From: a virus
Direction: 5' to 3' (one strand)
Virus record (IMG/VR): IMGVR_UViG_3300025147_000442
Span: 1-26,783 of that record
Length of the DNA: 26,783 nt
The notes beneath the pieces were generated by a model. The model worked only from the letters and a program-made list of their open reading frames with translations. It made no database searches and was not told the DNA's origin. This document shows positions 1,975 to 8,189 of this stretch, piece after piece. A program made the position numbers and the translations under genes. Position 1 is the first letter of the stretch. The number at the start of each line of letters is the position of its first letter.

Positions 1975-3975
1975 ATGAAAATCACAATGGAATATTACAA
2001 CGACACACTCTGCATTGAAGCAAATAAACTCTGGCAAGCAGAGATAGTTAGCTTTGATTATTACCGTCAGCTCTGTTCTCGGAATAAGATCAAGGTAGTA
2101 CGCCGAGGTTGTTTGGGTACTCCTGCCCTTGTTGCTTACGACAGCATTCCGGAACGGTTCCGTAAACTGATCAAGGAGAAATGTGGAGAAGTCGAAACTT
2201 CAGCCTCCAGGGATACCTTCGAAGGTCAAATCATAAACGATGAAGTTGCCCTGGCATTTTTCAGAACACACCGGCTTGATGATGACAGAAGATTGCCGAA
2301 AGAAGCAATTGAAGAGTACTGCGCAAATGCATCAATACTAAACACGCTTAAACTGGTATCAACAAACCGGATCGCTAAACACCGCGTGCTCGGAGGAAAC
2401 AAAAACGGCATTTGGGAAAAACTTTCAGAGGTTATTAACCATATCGATAAAGACAAATGGCCGCATACCCTTCCTTCCAATATGCGCCGCCTGCGCGACA
2501 GGTTAGACCGGTATAATAAAGAAGGATATCAAAGCCTGATCCACCCCAATTTTTGCAATAAGAATACTGAGAAGGTCTCGGACAATGCAAAACTATGGTT
2601 ACTGGCCAACTGGGCAACGAAAGTAGAAGTCACTCCATCGATCAAACAACTGACCGCAAAATATAACCTCGAGGCTGATGCTAAGGGATGGCTCAAAGTG
2701 AAATCAGAACAAACTATTCACAACTTCATTTACAGAGAAGACATTCAGGAGCTTTGGTGGGGACACCGCTACGGTGAACTAAAAGCAAAAGAGAAATATT
2801 CGGTTCAGAATAAAACCTTTATGCCTACAATGCGCGACTCGCTTTGGTATTCGGATGGTACAAAACTGAACTACTACTATTTGACCGAAGATGGCAAGAT
2901 GGAAACCTGTACAGTTTATGAAGTAATGGATTGCTACTCGGAGGTAATGATCGGTTACCACATCAGTAAAACCGAAGATTACGAGGCTCAGTTTTTTTCG
3001 TATAAAATGGCACTCCAGACAAGCGGACAAAAACCTTACGAGATCCGCTACGACAACCAGGGAGGGCATAAGAAACTTCAAAACGGCAACTTCCTCGGTT
3101 CGGTCGCACATCTTTCGATCCCTACGATGCCCTATAATGGAAAGAGTAAAACCATTGAAAGCGCCTTCGGACGTTTCCAGGCTGAATACCTTAAACGTGA
3201 CTGGTTTTTTACAGGTCAGAACATCACCGCTAAAAAAGAAGAAAGCAAAGCAAACCTTGAATTTATCCTGGCGAATAAAGCCAATCTTCCAAGCCTTCAG
3301 GAAGTGAAGGAACGCTATAAAATGCGTCGTAACGAATGGAATACAGCAAAACACCACAAAACAGGTATTTCCAAACTTGAAATGTACCGCACAAGCGTCA
3401 ATCCACGTGCTACGAAGATTGACATGATGGATATGGTTGAACTCTTCTGGATTGAGCGTAAAGAGCCGATTACCTGCAACGCCTACGGTATCTCCTTCAG
3501 GGAAAAGAATATCAAATACGATTACCTGGTATACAAAGAGGCAGGACGAGTTGATGTTGAATTCATGCGCAAAAGCATTGACAAGAAATTCACGATCCGG
3601 TTTGATCCGGACGACATGAGCATGATCTACCTGTATGAAAACACAGCTTCCGGATTGCGGTTTGTGACGGCTGCCGAAACTAAAATCGGAACATTCAGAA
3701 ATATTCAGGAGCAGGAAGATTGGGAGGCTGAATACATCAAGAACCTTGAGATCGCCAATAAAACGGCACGTGTCGCAACCAGGGATAAAATGGACGCTAT
3801 TCTTGAAGAGCATGGTTTACTTCCTGAGCAAAACGGACTATTTAGTCCAACCATCAAGGGTATTGAGAAGAAAACAAGAGCGAAGGCCGGCGAAATTGGC
3901 AAATATCAAAAAGCGGTCAGCTACGCAGAGAACGAAGAGGACTATTCGAAGACAGAACTTTATAAGAACATGTAA
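1975..3975 (+). CDS. Mu-type DDE transposase (MuA-like)
   Basis: The 666-residue enzyme catalyses strand transfer of the phage ends during integration and replicative transposition. The N-terminal about 250 residues contain helical DNA-binding subdomains. The RNase H-fold core shows Asp294 (YSDGTK), Asp360 (RYDNQGG) and Glu395 (KSKTIESAFG). The second and third acidic residues are 35 apart, as in retroviral integrases, against 56 in MuA (D336-E392). A MuA-type beta-barrel follows (about 480-560, around VELFWIERKEPITCNAYGI), then a charged tail that in MuA contacts MuB and ClpX. Length matches MuA (663). MuB follows 19 nt later. The tail contains QNGLF (619-623), which fits a beta-clamp motif. 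Confidence 0.95.
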   Translation: MKITMEYYNDTLCIEANKLWQAEIVSFDYYRQLCSRNKIKVVRRGCLGTPALVAYDSIPERFRKLIKEKCGEVETSASRDTFEGQIINDEVALAFFRTHRLDDDRRLPKEAIEEYCANASILNTLKLVSTNRIAKHRVLGGNKNGIWEKLSEVINHIDKDKWPHTLPSNMRRLRDRLDRYNKEGYQSLIHPNFCNKNTEKVSDNAKLWLLANWATKVEVTPSIKQLTAKYNLEADAKGWLKVKSEQTIHNFIYREDIQELWWGHRYGELKAKEKYSVQNKTFMPTMRDSLWYSDGTKLNYYYLTEDGKMETCTVYEVMDCYSEVMIGYHISKTEDYEAQFFSYKMALQTSGQKPYEIRYDNQGGHKKLQNGNFLGSVAHLSIPTMPYNGKSKTIESAFGRFQAEYLKRDWFFTGQNITAKKEESKANLEFILANKANLPSLQEVKERYKMRRNEWNTAKHHKTGISKLEMYRTSVNPRATKIDMMDMVELFWIERKEPITCNAYGISFREKNIKYDYLVYKEAGRVDVEFMRKSIDKKFTIRFDPDDMSMIYLYENTASGLRFVTAAETKIGTFRNIQEQEDWEAEYIKNLEIANKTARVATRDKMDAILEEHGLLPEQNGLFSPTIKGIEKKTRAKAGEIGKYQKAVSYAENEEDYSKTELYKNM

Positions 3976-3994: not shown

Positions 3995-4858
3995 ATGATC
4001 ACAGAATTAAACAAACAGCAAGTAACAGAAAAATTAAAGGAGTATTGCGATCGCTACGAGTCTCAAAACAAAGCAGCGAAAAGCCTTAACGGTGTTAGCT
4101 CCGCAACAATCAGCCAGGCGCTCAATAACAACTGGGAGTTAATCTCCGACGAAATGTGGCGCAACATTGGATCCCAAATCGGATACAGCGAGAATGAGTG
4201 GGTGGCTGTAGAGATCCGCGATTTTAAACGCCTTAATGGGCTTTTGGCAGACTCGCAGAATTTTGGGAATGTGTTTGCTGTTACAGGTGAAGCCGGAAGC
4301 GGGAAAAGCTTTGCACTTCGCCAGTTTGCAAACGATAACAAGCGCGTTTACTTACTCCAGTGTTACGAGTACTGGAACCGCAAAATGTTCCTTCAGGAGT
4401 TGCTCAGCTCGCTTGGACGCGACTACTCGGGTTACACGGTTGGTGAGATGATGACAGAAGCGGTTCGCGTGTTGAAGACTCAGCATTGTCCACTCATTAT
4501 CATGGATGAGGCAGACAAGCTAAGTGACCAGGTACTTTACTTTTTCATCACGCTCTACAACCAATTGGAAGATCGTGCCGGCATCGTTCTGTGTGCAACT
4601 GATCACCTCGCCAAACGGATCAGACGCGGTTTGAAACTCAACAAAAAAGGGTACAAGGAAATCTACAGCAGGATTGGACGGAAGTTTATTGAGCTCAGCG
4701 GTCCGGGATCCTCAGACATTGCATCGATCTGCCTTGCAAACGGGATTACCGAAAAATCAAAAATCAAAGACATCATCGAGAAGAGTGAGTTTGACCTTCG
4801 CAGGGTAAAAAGACTCATTCACGCTCAAAAGCAAATCGACAAACAAGCGGCTGTTTAA
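3995..4858 (+). CDS. Transposition target-selection ATPase (MuB-like)
   Basis: The product is a 287-residue AAA+ ATPase that binds DNA non-specifically, marks target sites and activates the transposase. An N-terminal helix-turn-helix (about residues 8-60, SQNKAAKSLNGVSSATISQAL) resembles the MuB N-domain. The P-loop GEAGSGKS is at 98-105 and the Walker B LIIMDEAD puts Asp171-Glu172 at the active site. The frame is open back to 3746, but that overlaps the transposase by 230 nt. I chose the ATG at 3995 because it gives the full HTH and an A-rich leader. Length is close to MuB (312). Confidence 0.93.
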   Translation: MITELNKQQVTEKLKEYCDRYESQNKAAKSLNGVSSATISQALNNNWELISDEMWRNIGSQIGYSENEWVAVEIRDFKRLNGLLADSQNFGNVFAVTGEAGSGKSFALRQFANDNKRVYLLQCYEYWNRKMFLQELLSSLGRDYSGYTVGEMMTEAVRVLKTQHCPLIIMDEADKLSDQVLYFFITLYNQLEDRAGIVLCATDHLAKRIRRGLKLNKKGYKEIYSRIGRKFIELSGPGSSDIASICLANGITEKSKIKDIIEKSEFDLRRVKRLIHAQKQIDKQAAV

Positions 4859-4880: not shown

Positions 4881-5534
4881 ATGGCTGTAAAAAAAATGAA
4901 CCGGGCAGTTTCAACAGAGGATCTGCTATCCCGCCATTTTAAGCTGATGGAGCTTGAGGGCGAATGGAAAGATCTGATAGGCGAACCGGAAAGGAATGGT
5001 GTATGGCTCATTTGGGGAAACTCAGGAAACGGGAAAACACGTTTTTGTTTGATGCTTGCCAAGTACCTCACACGCTTTGGTCGTGTCGCCTACAACACAC
5101 TGGAAGAGGGGGCCCGCCGCAGTATGCAAAAGGCGGTGACAGAAGTTGGCATGAGTGATCTTCCAAAGTTAAGGTGTCCCATCTTCCTCAACCGTGAACC
5201 AATCGAGGAGCTAAGAATAAGGCTCACCAAACGAAAAAGCCCTGATATCATCTTTATCGATTCATTTCAATATACGGGGCTGAGCCGTCTCGCATATATC
5301 AGGCTCAAAGAAGACTTCCCCAGCAAGCTTTTCATATTCGTATCGCACGCTGAAGGAAAGAACCCACTGGGACGCACAGCACAATTTGTCCGCTACGATG
5401 TCGATGTAAAAATAAGGATTGAAGGTTTCAGGGCTTTATCGGCCTCAAGGATAGCAGATACAAGGTTAGGAACCACTAAGCCATTCGATATTTGGGAAAA
5501 GGGTGCAATGGAGTACTGGGGAGAAAAGTTTTAA
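4881..5534 (+). CDS. Second P-loop ATPase downstream of MuB
   Basis: This 217-residue RecA/AAA-type NTPase has a Walker A GNSGNGKT (46-53) and a Walker B DIIFIDS (Asp127). After it comes an SHAEGKNPLGRTAQFVRYDVD stretch that looks like a sensor segment, as in RecA/DnaB-like folds (SH, then a loop and Asp). Mu has no equivalent, but ATP-binding proteins of this kind recur after MuB in Bacteroidota Mu-like phages. A role in remodelling the transpososome or loading replication proteins is a reasonable guess. It starts 22 nt after MuB. Confidence 0.8.
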   Translation: MAVKKMNRAVSTEDLLSRHFKLMELEGEWKDLIGEPERNGVWLIWGNSGNGKTRFCLMLAKYLTRFGRVAYNTLEEGARRSMQKAVTEVGMSDLPKLRCPIFLNREPIEELRIRLTKRKSPDIIFIDSFQYTGLSRLAYIRLKEDFPSKLFIFVSHAEGKNPLGRTAQFVRYDVDVKIRIEGFRALSASRIADTRLGTTKPFDIWEKGAMEYWGEKF

Positions 5535-5565: not shown

Positions 5566-6012
5566 ATGAAAGCAACATGTGACAGTAAACAATCGGGGTT
5601 ATTAAAGAAGTTTCACACCCTGTGTTCAAAAAACGGATTAAGCCAGGATCAGAAGACTGCAATAGTATCATCCTTTGGAGTTGAAAGCAGTCGCGATTTG
5701 AATGTGATGCAATTACAACGCGCATGCGATACCCTGGGCAATATCGTTAAAACCGAAACATCGGATCTTGATGTTTGGCGCAAACGCGTGATGGCTTCAG
5801 TCGGTGCCTGGCTTCGTTTGATTGCACAGCCACAGAGCGCGCCAATTATTAAAGCAATTGCATGCAGGGTAACGAAGCACGAGGATTTTAATGATATCCC
5901 CAAAGAACGCCTTGTTAACGTCTATTACCTATTTCTTCAAAAGCAAAAAGACTTTAAAGCAGTTGACGGGATTGCAAAAGAGGAACTTGAAACATTAACT
6001 TATTTGAACTAA
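5566..6012 (+). CDS. GemA (Mu gp16)-like regulatory protein
   Basis: The 148-residue, largely helical protein sits right after the transposition genes, where Mu carries gemA. Its opening (LLKKFHTLCSKNGLSQDQKTAIV, then FGVESSRDLNVMQLQRACDTL) follows the DUF1018/GemA plan: a first helix, a short loop, SS-plus-DL capping, then a second helix. A second helical part contains VWRKRVMASVGAWL. GemA modulates host gene expression and DNA topology in Mu. The match rests on pattern and position, not on a diagnostic motif. Its TAA overlaps the next ATG (TAATG). Confidence 0.6.
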   Translation: MKATCDSKQSGLLKKFHTLCSKNGLSQDQKTAIVSSFGVESSRDLNVMQLQRACDTLGNIVKTETSDLDVWRKRVMASVGAWLRLIAQPQSAPIIKAIACRVTKHEDFNDIPKERLVNVYYLFLQKQKDFKAVDGIAKEELETLTYLN

Positions 6013-6218
6013 TGGAATCAACAGTAAAAACATTAGAAGAGTTAAAGGCAGAAATTGACGAATTAACTCACTTTCAAATGTGTAAAATGTGGCGGTCTGG
6101 CAATGCAAATCCAGCCTATTTTGACAGTACTAATCCGATAGCAAAGTATTTCAGTGATCGATTATTTGGACACTTCGGAGGATTTACACCGGAGATTTCA
6201 AAACAAATTGGCTGGTAA
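6012..6218 (+). CDS. Small hypothetical protein (68 aa)
   Basis: The start codon overlaps the upstream stop as TAATG, which argues for coupled translation with the GemA-like gene. The protein begins with an acidic helix (LEELKAEIDELTHFQMCKMW) and continues with an aromatic segment (NPAYFDSTNPIAKYFSDRLFGHFGGF). I do not recognise a family. The first tRNA-like hairpin begins 7 nt after its stop. Confidence 0.65.
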   Translation: MESTVKTLEELKAEIDELTHFQMCKMWRSGNANPAYFDSTNPIAKYFSDRLFGHFGGFTPEISKQIGW

Positions 6219-6225
6219 CAGTCAC

Positions 6226-6260
6226 CCGGAAGCGGCTCCGGGGTTCGACTCCCCATCCGG
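6226..6260 (+). other. tRNA acceptor/T-arm-like minihelix, copy 1
   Basis: The order is CCGGA (6226-6230), a 9-nt bulge AGCGGCTCC (6231-6239), GGGG (6240-6243), loop TTCGACT (6244-6250), CCCC (6251-6254), A6255 and TCCGG (6256-6260). GGTTCGACTCC is a perfect tRNA T-arm signature and the two stems can stack coaxially, but no D-arm or anticodon arm is present. The 3' flank TTCA runs directly into an ATG at 6265. A competing 6-bp hairpin, CCCGGA (6225-6230) with TCCGGG (6237-6242), could make the element bistable. There is no U-tract, so it is not a standard terminator. Confidence 0.7.
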
Positions 6261-6297
6261 TTCAATGACAACAATGTCAGATATTAAAAAAACGAAA

Positions 6298-6840
6298 ATG
6301 AAAAAAGTTTTAGTAGTTGGAATGATCGTGAAATACAAAACGACGGAAGCTGATCAATCAAAAATGGCTGAACACCGATCGGTTTGTAATGTAAAAGAGG
6401 AACTTCCGGCAGTGATTGTTGCAGTTTGGCCGAACGATGTAGTAAACCTAAAAGTATTGCTTGATGGCCAGGGCGAAATTTGGCAAACATCAGTTATCCA
6501 AGGTGAAGAGGTTGGACAATATAGCTTGTATCCAAGCGAAGAGAAAGAGTTTATTTCTGAAATAGAAGGATTGATTATCAAACTTGCAGGTGAAAAACAC
6601 GAGTTAGAGCAAGTATCAATCAGTATACAACAAGATTTGGAAGCGTCTAAAAATACGTTATCGGACATGCTTGCAGTGAAAAAGGATCTTGAATCCATAT
6701 TGGACGCTATCCCCTCAGTGAAACTAAAACTCGTAAACGATTTGCAGGCTCAATTTGATGTGTTCGAAGCTGCCGCTAAAACAGTAATGGTCATACCGAC
6801 CGGAACTATAGAAGCCGAAGCTGTAACAGCAAAGAAGTAA
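6298..6840 (+). CDS. Hypothetical phage protein with coiled coil
   Basis: The 180-residue product has an N-terminal small beta domain (MIVKYKTTEADQ ... ELPAVIVAVWPNDVVNLKVLLDGQGEIW), a pattern I associate with short phage proteins of unknown role, then a long coiled coil (about residues 80-145, EIEGLIIKLAGEKHELEQ) and a flexible Ala/Thr-rich tail. I chose ATG 6298 because an A-rich leader precedes it and the beta domain begins there; in-frame ATGs at 6265 and 6274 would add 11 or 8 residues, and the frame opens at 6154 inside the previous gene. It is flanked by the two tRNA-like minihelices. Confidence 0.75.
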   Translation: MKKVLVVGMIVKYKTTEADQSKMAEHRSVCNVKEELPAVIVAVWPNDVVNLKVLLDGQGEIWQTSVIQGEEVGQYSLYPSEEKEFISEIEGLIIKLAGEKHELEQVSISIQQDLEASKNTLSDMLAVKKDLESILDAIPSVKLKLVNDLQAQFDVFEAAAKTVMVIPTGTIEAEAVTAKK

Positions 6841-6878
6841 CCGGAGGCGGTCCTGGGGGTTCGACTCCCCCATCCGGT
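6840..6878 (+). other. tRNA acceptor/T-arm-like minihelix, copy 2
   Basis: The order is ACCGGA (6840-6845), a 9-nt bulge GGCGGTCCT (6846-6854), GGGGG (6855-6859), loop TTCGACT (6860-6866), CCCCC (6867-6871), A6872 and TCCGGT (6873-6878). It has the same plan, bulge length, loop and spacer A as copy 1, but its T-stem is one pair longer on both strands and its outer stem is also longer, so pairing is kept while sequence differs. The first base is the last base of the upstream stop codon. The 3' flank is ACAATA. Confidence 0.7.
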
Positions 6879-6882
6879 ACAA

Positions 6883-6898
6883 TACCGAATATTCGGTA
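6883..6898. promoter_or_regulatory. Perfect 16-bp palindrome
   Basis: TACCGAATATTCGGTA is a perfect palindrome starting 5 nt after minihelix copy 2 and 24 nt before the DUF4494 start. It could be an operator for a dimeric regulator or, less well, a hairpin, since as RNA it has no free loop. No second copy was noticed in the window. Confidence 0.45.
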
Positions 6899-6921: not shown

Positions 6922-7431
6922 ATGAATACTTGGTTCGAAACAACAGCAAAGTACATCAAAATGGATGAGAATGGCAGAGAGCGTAAGGCGAGCGAAACCT
7001 ATTTGCTTGATGCGATCAGCTTCAGCGAGGCAGAAAACCGCATTTTCAAAGAGCTCCAAACAATGGTGAGCGGTGAATTTATCGTGACGAAAATTGCCAA
7101 AACAAATATTTGTGAAATCATCCCTTCAGATGATGGCGACCGTTGGTATAAAGCAAAAGTTTCCTTCATCACAATCGACGAGGAATTAGGTAAAGAAAAA
7201 AGAGTTGCACAGTTTGTCCTGGTGTTTTCCAATAGCCCCAAAGAGGCATCAGATCAGATTACCGAAGCCATGCAGGGCATGATGGCAGACTTTGAGATAT
7301 CTTCAATTTCTGAAAGTAACATTTTGGATGTTTTCCCCTACTCAGCAGACGAAAAACAAGCATGGGCTCCACACCTGAAACCAATAGAGGCATTTTTGGC
7401 AGCCGGAAATTCTGAGGAAGATGTCGATTAA
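6922..7431 (+). CDS. DUF4494 family protein
   Basis: The 169-residue protein matches the DUF4494 pattern: an opening WFETTAKYIKMDENG, then YLLDAISFSEAENRIFKEL, GEFIVTKI, DGDRWYKAKVSFITIDE and a terminal SNILDVFPYS. The family is common in Bacteroidota genomes and prophages and has no established function. The leader (AACTTAAAATTAAA) is a typical start context for the phylum. The C-terminal 11 nt overlap the next gene. Identification is from recalled family pattern and is firm; function is unknown. Confidence 0.88.
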   Translation: MNTWFETTAKYIKMDENGRERKASETYLLDAISFSEAENRIFKELQTMVSGEFIVTKIAKTNICEIIPSDDGDRWYKAKVSFITIDEELGKEKRVAQFVLVFSNSPKEASDQITEAMQGMMADFEISSISESNILDVFPYSADEKQAWAPHLKPIEAFLAAGNSEEDVD

Positions 7432-7633
7432 GAAATACAATAAGAGTGAAACTCAAATCTGTGGCGACTGCAAAGGGGATGGCCAGCGATGGTCAGAACT
7501 GGAACCGGCTCGCCACGGATCCTCCGGAGTCTGCGAGATGATCACATGCTCCACCTGCACCGGATCAGGCATGGTAAAAGTAACCAGGGATATCACCATT
7601 ACAGTTGAACCTCACATAACAAAGCAATGCTAA
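7421..7633 (+). CDS. Small DnaJ-type zinc-finger protein
   Basis: The 70-residue protein has two CxxCxGxG-type repeats, CGDCKGDG and CSTCTGSG, the zinc-binding unit of the DnaJ central domain, separated by about 24 residues. One intact zinc site is therefore likely. The gene overlaps the DUF4494 gene by 11 nt and the next gene by 7 nt, so it is part of the same translated block. It has no J-domain. It may bind zinc to fold or to contact a partner; no more can be said. Confidence 0.75.
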   Translation: MSIKKYNKSETQICGDCKGDGQRWSELEPARHGSSGVCEMITCSTCTGSGMVKVTRDITITVEPHITKQC

Positions 7634-7938
7634 AAACAATCAAACGTTCAGATCGCCACAATATGTATGATCTCCGGGTTCGGATGATGGTTGACGCTAT
7701 AATAAAAGAGCACAATACATTGGATGAATTCAAACAACAGTTCTTTGAAAGAATTCAACTAATACCTCAAATGTCAGCCTATGCTCCAGCCTTTTGTTAT
7801 GTCCTGTTGCGTAAAGAATTTTACATGCAGGTCTGGCATCGGAACGTATCCGGGAAAAAAGACAGGTTATTGTTCGATGTCTTTTCAGTTACCGACTTCC
7901 CATTTACATATGACGAGTCATGCTCAAGTCAATCCTAA
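7627..7938 (+). CDS. Hypothetical protein, first of a paralogous pair
   Basis: The 103-residue product has a helical N-terminal half (TLDEFKQQFFERIQLIP) and a C-terminal signature QVWHRNVSGKKDRLLFDVFSV. The next gene repeats this as QVWRRSMNAGADRLLFEIVAL, with the preceding T/C-LDEF/EQF helix also in register. The two look like products of a tandem duplication. It overlaps both neighbours by short stretches (7 and 19 nt). Function is unknown. Confidence 0.7.
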   Translation: MLKTIKRSDRHNMYDLRVRMMVDAIIKEHNTLDEFKQQFFERIQLIPQMSAYAPAFCYVLLRKEFYMQVWHRNVSGKKDRLLFDVFSVTDFPFTYDESCSSQS

Positions 7939-8189
7939 AAGAAGTAAGGTTTAGCCTGTTTGATAAAAAGGCGATATCCCTGGTCTCTCAAACCACTTTA
8001 AAGTGTGATACCCTCGAACAGTTTGTGACGGAATTCAACACACAGGTTAAAAATACGGAAGGCTTTGGGGAGTTATTTAAGATTACCTATTACGTGACGA
8101 AATCAGCAGATAAGGCGCAGGTGTGGCGAAGGAGCATGAACGCAGGCGCTGATCGGCTTTTATTCGAAATAGTAGCGTTAAAGTATTAA
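7920..8189 (+). CDS. Hypothetical protein, second of a paralogous pair
   Basis: The 89-residue product shares with the previous gene the layout 'helix, TLEQFVTEFNTQV, YYVTKSADKAQVW, RLLFE'. It starts 19 nt inside its paralogue, which points to coupled translation and similar amounts of both proteins, perhaps a heteromer. The family is not recognised. Confidence 0.7.
   Translation: MLKSILKEVRFSLFDKKAISLVSQTTLKCDTLEQFVTEFNTQVKNTEGFGELFKITYYVTKSADKAQVWRRSMNAGADRLLFEIVALKY

Follow-up and report, generated by a model that had tools for sequence, protein, structure and literature searches.

Two intergenic spaces of an early operon in a Mu-like phage each contain a short element built like the acceptor and T arms of a tRNA, and the two copies belong to a broad family of armless tRNA-like RNA elements that occupy intergenic leaders in phage operons. 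The structure of these elements is well supported. From their anatomy we infer that the copies are sites at which host tRNA-end-processing enzymes would separate one cistron from the next, as a form of punctuation; cleavage, the enzyme responsible and a protective role for the mRNA are all predicted on this basis, and the reading is given a probability of about 0.58.

Two armless tRNA-like elements in an early operon

The window, i.e., the whole stretch of DNA analysed here (26,783 nt), is an entire IMG/VR record (IMGVR_UViG_3300025147_000442), linear and possibly a fragment, of a Mu-like phage encoding a Mu-type transposase (1975-3975, phrog_310). The relevant features of the operon are the following.

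6216..6218, + strand: stop codon UAA of a 68-aa gene (6012-6218), 7 nt upstream of copy 1
6226..6260, + strand: copy 1 of the armless tRNA-like element, a degenerate one with a 5-bp acceptor, a 4-bp T stem, the loop TTCGACT and the connector AGCGGCTCC; conserved in the relatives L124 and L125
6266..6279, + strand: second hairpin after copy 1, TGACA ACAA TGTCA, from its fold; kept in L124 and L125
6298..6840, + strand: 180-aa early gene between the copies, with weak matches to phrog_19300 and phrog_2293; absent in the relatives L126 and L127
6838..6840, + strand: stop codon UAA, read from the sequence, whose final A takes part in the outermost pair of copy 2
6840..6878, + strand: armless tRNA-like element copy 2, with a 12-bp acceptor/T stack, from its fold and a match to the covariance model R1
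6883..6898, + strand: second hairpin after copy 2, TACCGA ATAT TCGGTA, from its fold; compensatory changes in L124, L125 and L126
6922..7431, + strand: downstream gene, DUF4494 (PF14902), whose leader is formed by the element; used to find relatives

Both minihelices are present where a sequence-only reading had placed them, at 6226-6260 and 6840-6878, and both follow exactly the layout described there: an outer stem, a 9-nt bulge, a T stem, the loop TTCGACT, a single A and the 3' strand. Copy 1 consists of CCGGA (6226-6230), AGCGGCTCC (6231-6239), GGGG (6240-6243), TTCGACT (6244-6250), CCCC (6251-6254), A6255 and TCCGG (6256-6260). Copy 2 consists of ACCGGA (6840-6845), GGCGGTCCT (6846-6854), GGGGG (6855-6859), TTCGACT (6860-6866), CCCCC (6867-6871), A6872 and TCCGGT (6873-6878), and directly 3' of it are A6879 and C6880, corresponding to tRNA positions 73 and 74. 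The T stem of 4 bp in one copy (GGGG/CCCC) and 5 bp in the other (GGGGG/CCCCC), with pairing kept, is likewise as that reading had it. In copy 2, A6872 pairs with U6854 to give an uninterrupted 12-bp acceptor/T stack, and the predicted fold is the one drawn (-26.8 kcal/mol, z -2.0). Copy 1 contains the mismatches C6239.A6255 and C6225.U6261, and its minimum-energy fold differs from the drawn one (z -0.65). RNase Z substrates are expected to have an unpaired 3' trailer with no CCA; the trailer that follows the window stack is A-CAA, and ACCA is present in some actinophage members of the family.

The occurrence of these structures in the window is far from a chance expectation. When both strands were scanned for GC-rich minihelix structures with any 7-nt loop, two were found under a strict filter and three under a looser one; the TTCGACT loop is present in two of them, against about 0.003 expected by chance, and copies 1 and 2 are the only GC-rich structures of such kind with a tRNA T-loop in 26.8 kb. 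ARAGORN reports no tRNA gene in the window and Rfam gives no match there at the gathering threshold. Relaxed thresholds also yield no Rfam family covering the elements; the T-arm alone gives a match there, as tmRNA (E 2.8e-4, below gathering). The elements do not have the cloverleaf with D, anticodon and T arms of the tRNA class (RF00005); what they have is the architecture of a tRNA-like acceptor/T minihelix (a stack of about 12 bp, the T-loop TTCGAYT and paired acceptor strands), which is complete in copy 2 and carries the two mismatches in copy 1.

Besides the 12-bp stack of copy 2 and the GG of the 9-nt connector, which is conserved across phages, the surroundings of the elements hold further features that the sequence-only reading had not seen. 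Each copy begins 0-8 nt past a stop codon, and a short leader separates it from ATG 6298 or ATG 6922; within this leader, about 4-5 nt past the acceptor strand, lies a second hairpin. No T run is present 3' of the hairpins at 6266-6279 and 6883-6898, where the next letters are GATATTAAAA and GAACATTAAA, respectively, and a reading as intrinsic terminators, which calls for a GC-rich hairpin with a T run, was rejected. An upstream ATG at 6265 was also considered as the start of the 180-aa gene; since the equivalent frame in L124 runs into a stop, 6298 was adopted as the start and the hairpin was regarded as non-coding. Further downstream, the overlapping small genes at 7627-7938 and 7920-8189 resemble diverged paralogues, both matching the same stretch of L124, L125 and L127, and the gene at 7421-7633 encodes a 70-aa protein with CxxC motifs and a weak match to an anti-termination protein Q-like family (phrog_6060) and to a DnaJ zinc domain.

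Conservation in relatives and recurrence in unrelated phages

Relatives of the window phage were located through the downstream DUF4494 gene, and the element is kept in front of this gene. L124 and L125 have two copies flanking a relative of the 180-aa gene, as in the window; L126 and L127 have a single copy and the 180-aa gene (6298-6840) is absent. The second hairpin changes in a compensatory manner: TACCGA/TCGGTA in the window, TCCCGA/TCGGGA in L124, TAACGA/TCGTTA in L125 and TATCGA/TCGATA in L126 are double changes that keep the pairing. Moreover, a more distant relative, L211, carries a full-length tRNA gene in front of DUF4494, at the place where the window has copy 2 (ARAGORN 5092-5163; Rfam tRNA 46.5 bits, E 5.7e-9). 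This gene is followed by CAACCCCGAATAGTCGGGAG, i.e., the same downstream hairpin, and by the same A-rich leader, and a mini-element lies about 70 nt upstream of it. The exchange of a mini-element and a tRNA gene at one site is the strongest single hint that tRNA-ness itself matters. ARAGORN assigns the tRNA at 5092-5163 of L211 to Pro (tgg), with an unusual anticodon arm.

The check proposed along with the sequence-only reading, namely a covariance model, a search of related phages and a count of covarying pairs, was carried out, and it found the elements conserved and all 12 pairs covarying. The model, R1, was built from an alignment (A3) of 15 elements from actinophages, haloviruses and other phages outside the window family, from which the Flavobacteriales phages and all Bacteroidota sequences were also left out. 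R1 nevertheless finds copy 2 at full length (6840-6880) as the best match of the window, with 30.6 bits and E 3.3e-4, E-values being rough after a short calibration; copy 1 scores 17.2 bits, through its T-arm alone. R1 also matches the elements of L127 and of Flavobacteriales phages. When 77 matches of the covariance model were aligned (A4), all 12 pairs were found to change on both sides, with 227 double-change cells against 63±5.5 after shuffling and at most 47 with the partner slid, a count that is partly circular because the members of A3 and A4 were gathered by a scan requiring pairing. The tests on the window family, on the orthologous site in Flavobacteriales and across phyla with the covariance model are independent of this filter. 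Pairing in the acceptor/T minihelix class is under selection, as its covariation indicates; the earlier reading of the elements as armless tRNA mimics under selection on structure is supported by the covariance model, by conservation in relatives and by covariation in A4, in the second hairpin and in the T stems of Flavobacteriales.

Outside the window family, IMG/VR was scanned with a pattern in which just the CCGG...CCGG acceptor around the T-arm was fixed; this returned many non-tRNA elements in unrelated phages, and a loose T-arm pattern gave mostly tRNA genes. One plan recurs in Indlulamithi, Cafasso, HF2 and Mu-like prophages of Flavobacteriales: past a stop codon comes an armless tRNA-like fold whose connector contains GG, then in many cases a hairpin, and then a start codon. 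In Mycobacterium phage Indlulamithi (NC_048824), about ten such spaces of 85-100 nt are present in one gene block, with stems that are unrelated between copies. Each space has a stop codon, 5-13 nt (at least 28 nt in two), an acceptor of 5-6 bp, a connector such as AACGGTTTTCG, a T stem of 6 bp and the loop TTCGATT; after these come, in most spaces, AC or GC and a small hairpin, and then the ribosome site AGAGGATG and the start. One of these spaces (L216 18754-18847) has in its connector a D-arm-like hairpin, CTC-TGGT-GAG. This space, together with L216 17417-17565, L239 19641-19822, L240 11224-11269 and L241 3361-3414, forms a set of variants with an extra stem or a D-arm-like connector hairpin, which are intermediates between a tRNA and the armless form.

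Gordonia phage Cafasso has such elements in six consecutive gaps, with stems that differ between neighbours, phage MyraDee has one or two such spaces and the haloarchaeal virus HF2 has two elements. HF2 also shows a predicted hammerhead ribozyme between two genes (L239 10292-10359), another possible mRNA-cutting device. Low-GC Bacteroidota phages carry two to four copies of TCCCA-AACGGTTTTTT-GGAGCGG-TTCGATT-CCGCTCC-TGGGA; one low-GC phage contig with one armless element (L174) also contains two group I introns (1776-2041 and 3061-3361). In Flavobacteriales prophages the element directly precedes a gene whose start resembles the window transposase, and at one orthologous site the T stem is CGGAGG/CCTCCG, CAGAGG/CCTCTG or GAGCGG/CCGCTC. 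In L247, L250, L253 and L255 the leader before the transposase gene has, between element and start codon, a conserved inverted repeat TTTAAAC-NNN-GTTTAAA, which is probably the second hairpin of this group.

Bacterial genomes were searched as well. A Bacteroidota-specific pattern gave 0 matches over genome contigs, and a second one matched Elizabethkingia miricola (G001) and a Flavobacteriales MAG. Of 197 genomes sampled from the family to which G001 belongs, 18 gave a match, several of them two or three matches only a few kb apart, and a phylum-wide model search gave few matches outside the seed genome. Three candidates from that search (L257, L258 and L260) resemble genes of the tRNA-Leu type and were discarded as false positives.

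The features common to the class were counted over 72 strong members without regard to their relatedness: 40 of 72 have an acceptor/T stack whose 3' strand measures 12 nt (25% in a null of shuffled upstream sequence), and in just one it measures at least 14 (null 25%); position 74 is C in 43, usually with no second C; a same-strand stop codon lies at most 30 nt upstream in 48 (control 14%); and a second hairpin starts within 9 nt in 25 of 71 under a strict score (null 3%). The total is mostly 12 bp despite a variable split between acceptor and T stem (5+7, 6+6, 7+5 or 8+4), and a tendency to R73-C74 is seen among the members. Furthermore, in loci that were not chosen for GG, 57 of 59 connectors contain it, against a mean of 36.5 after shuffling. 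This GG usually lies 9-10 nt in from the 5' end, at the place that D-loop G18G19 would take.

Proposed processing of the transcript and its alternatives

Among the functional options raised by the sequence-only reading, an mRNA processing site would fit best, in view of the placement between cistrons, the 12-bp ruler and the tRNA exchange in L211. Punctuation is suggested because the family stands between cistrons. The elements fold as a continuous acceptor/T stack, about 12 bp long, that ends in a canonical T-loop, and the GG of the short 5' connector would replace the D-loop G18G19, giving a tRNA elbow with neither D nor anticodon arm. In this way they would preserve the features by which RNase P and RNase Z recognise a substrate, i.e., a fixed-length acceptor/T stack, the T-loop, position 73, C74 and probably the elbow. 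The predicted RNase Z cut lies directly 3' of position 73, at A6879^C6880 in the case of copy 2, and RNase P could also cut 5' of the fold in phages where the stop codon is clear of it, so that the polycistronic transcript would be split between cistrons, as in the tRNA punctuation of mitochondria. The second hairpin, where present, would become a 5'-terminal stem, because it starts 2-5 nt past the RNase Z cut behind position 73, and from there it may shield the downstream mRNA. 5'-terminal stems stabilise bacterial mRNA. In the window family, a cut by RNase P at the distance set by the 12-bp ruler would split the stop codon (A6839^A6840) and yield a non-stop mRNA; RNase Z is therefore the only good candidate there, and the upstream mRNA would then end in the mimic. 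Both cuts are conceivable in Indlulamithi and Cafasso.

Several published observations bear on this proposal. RNase P recognises stacked acceptor/T stems and a 3' RCC, and a minimal helix of 12 bp is cut efficiently (PMC11221534). In non-tRNA substrates of RNase P the D-loop appears dispensable and a T-loop-like loop is needed (PMC4919913), and phage and operon RNAs are known among its substrates (PMC11143913). In HF2, a virus studied for its intergenic repeats and for its transcripts, the latter are long by RT-PCR and short on Northern blots, and the authors suggest processing (PMC8707807). The one 5' end published near a member, the primer-extension end at T-4384 of HF2, was read as a promoter start (PMC8707807); nt 4384 falls within the element 4375-4414, and this end, considered as support for cutting, is ambiguous and neither supports nor excludes the model. 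The generalisation that many tailed viruses of bacteria and archaea put armless tRNA mimics between genes, that essential tRNA-maturation enzymes of the host cut and cap their mRNAs, with cistron borders set by tRNA mimicry and not by promoters and terminators, and that in some families an overlap of the fold with the upstream stop ties the cut to translation termination, is put forward tentatively, at slightly less than even odds.

The fold could instead remain on the upstream mRNA, whether this is cut downstream or left uncut, and shield its 3' end, much as tRNA-like structures do in plant RNA viruses, with the second hairpin insulating the next cistron. Many members begin 0-10 nt past the stop codon, and the outer pair of the window-family elements reaches into it, which suits a cap better than a 5' cut; such a role taken alone, however, fails to explain the second hairpin close behind position 74, and a plain hairpin would do as well with no T-loop, GG or 12-bp length, so that we consider it rather unlikely. 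An excised 40-nt RNA might also act in trans, as a mini-tRNA or decoy that titrates EF-Tu, a tRNA enzyme of the host or some other elbow-binding factor. Several tRNA enzymes need no more than a T-arm minihelix, and many copies per genome exist in Indlulamithi and Cafasso. Minihelix work on alanyl-tRNA synthetase and EF-Tu is among that cited in PMC11221534. Against a trans role, which appears improbable, stand the unrelated stems of copies within one phage (Indlulamithi, Cafasso) and the position in cis, between cistrons, where a leader, in many cases a hairpin, and then a ribosome binding site come after the element.

The other alternatives concern DNA. As repeated tRNA-derived linkers that let gene cassettes enter or leave, with no RNA role, the elements would account for the gene at 6298-6840, which is flanked by two copies in the window and in L124 and L125, and is missing from the single-copy L126 and L127. 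To this extent the earlier suggestion of tRNA 3'-end repeats bounding an inserted gene stands; it does not extend to the elements themselves, which are folded RNAs with both acceptor strands and, in all likelihood, not attachment-site fragments. Neighbouring copies in Cafasso and Indlulamithi have different stems, so that the elements are poor homology arms, and their pairing is kept by compensatory changes that DNA homology does not need; linkers are, if anything, a shade less probable than a decoy. Attachment sites or decayed tRNA genes are the least probable of all, hardly to be expected given that both acceptor strands are kept, that several copies occur per genome, and that placement is intergenic with covariation, even though HF2 carries elsewhere a truncated tRNA-Thr as attP (PMC8707807) and L211 has a tRNA gene at one site. 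Moreover, the window phage would need no tRNA attachment site because its transposase is of the Mu type.

Relation to known systems

No description of such elements was found in the open-access full-text literature, and ten matched phage records have no annotation at the element; the class of armless tRNA-like intergenic phage elements is apparently undescribed so far. If the punctuation reading is right, phage genomics would gain an unannotated RNA family for which Rfam has no model, together with a general explanation of how separate, stable mRNAs arise in phages whose small genes are co-transcribed in long blocks, through tRNA mimicry and the RNase Z or RNase P of the host. The elements would also provide natural minimal elbow substrates for these enzymes from several phage branches, and RNA 5' and 3' ends are predicted exactly at tRNA positions 1 and 73.

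Among known systems, the non-tRNA substrates of RNase P (phi80 M3 RNA, P1/P7 C4 RNA, T4 gene 32 mRNA and his operon mRNA; PMC11143913) are also phage or operon RNAs read by a tRNA-processing enzyme, but they are single cases, whereas the phage elements are a recurrent family with a T-loop, a connector GG and a covarying 12-bp stack. The minimal substrates pATSer and MD1 (PMC11221534) share the acceptor/T-type helix with no D or anticodon arm, in MD1 as a 12-bp stack; these are laboratory constructs, while the phage elements also keep the GG connector and sit in mRNA leaders. The 3' tRNA-like structures of plant viruses likewise mimic the acceptor/T arm in a viral RNA, but they end genomic RNAs and use pseudoknots, whereas the phage elements are internal and repeated and have no acceptor pseudoknot. 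Loss of arms is common to the armless mitochondrial tRNAs of nematodes and mites, which keep the anticodon and decode, unlike the phage elements with no anticodon arm. In T4-type phages, the PeSL early-promoter stem-loop cassettes are hairpins with promoters, repeated in intergenic positions beside exchangeable small early genes; they resemble the phage elements as repeated intergenic RNA structures in such a setting and differ in having promoters and no tRNA-like fold. Finally, in mitochondrial tRNA punctuation RNase P and RNase Z excise tRNAs from between mRNAs, and here too tRNA-type folds stand between protein genes, with cutting by tRNA-end enzymes proposed for the phage; mitochondria, however, use real functional tRNAs, whereas the phage elements are armless mimics of 35-45 nt, often accompanied by a second hairpin, for which cutting is predicted.
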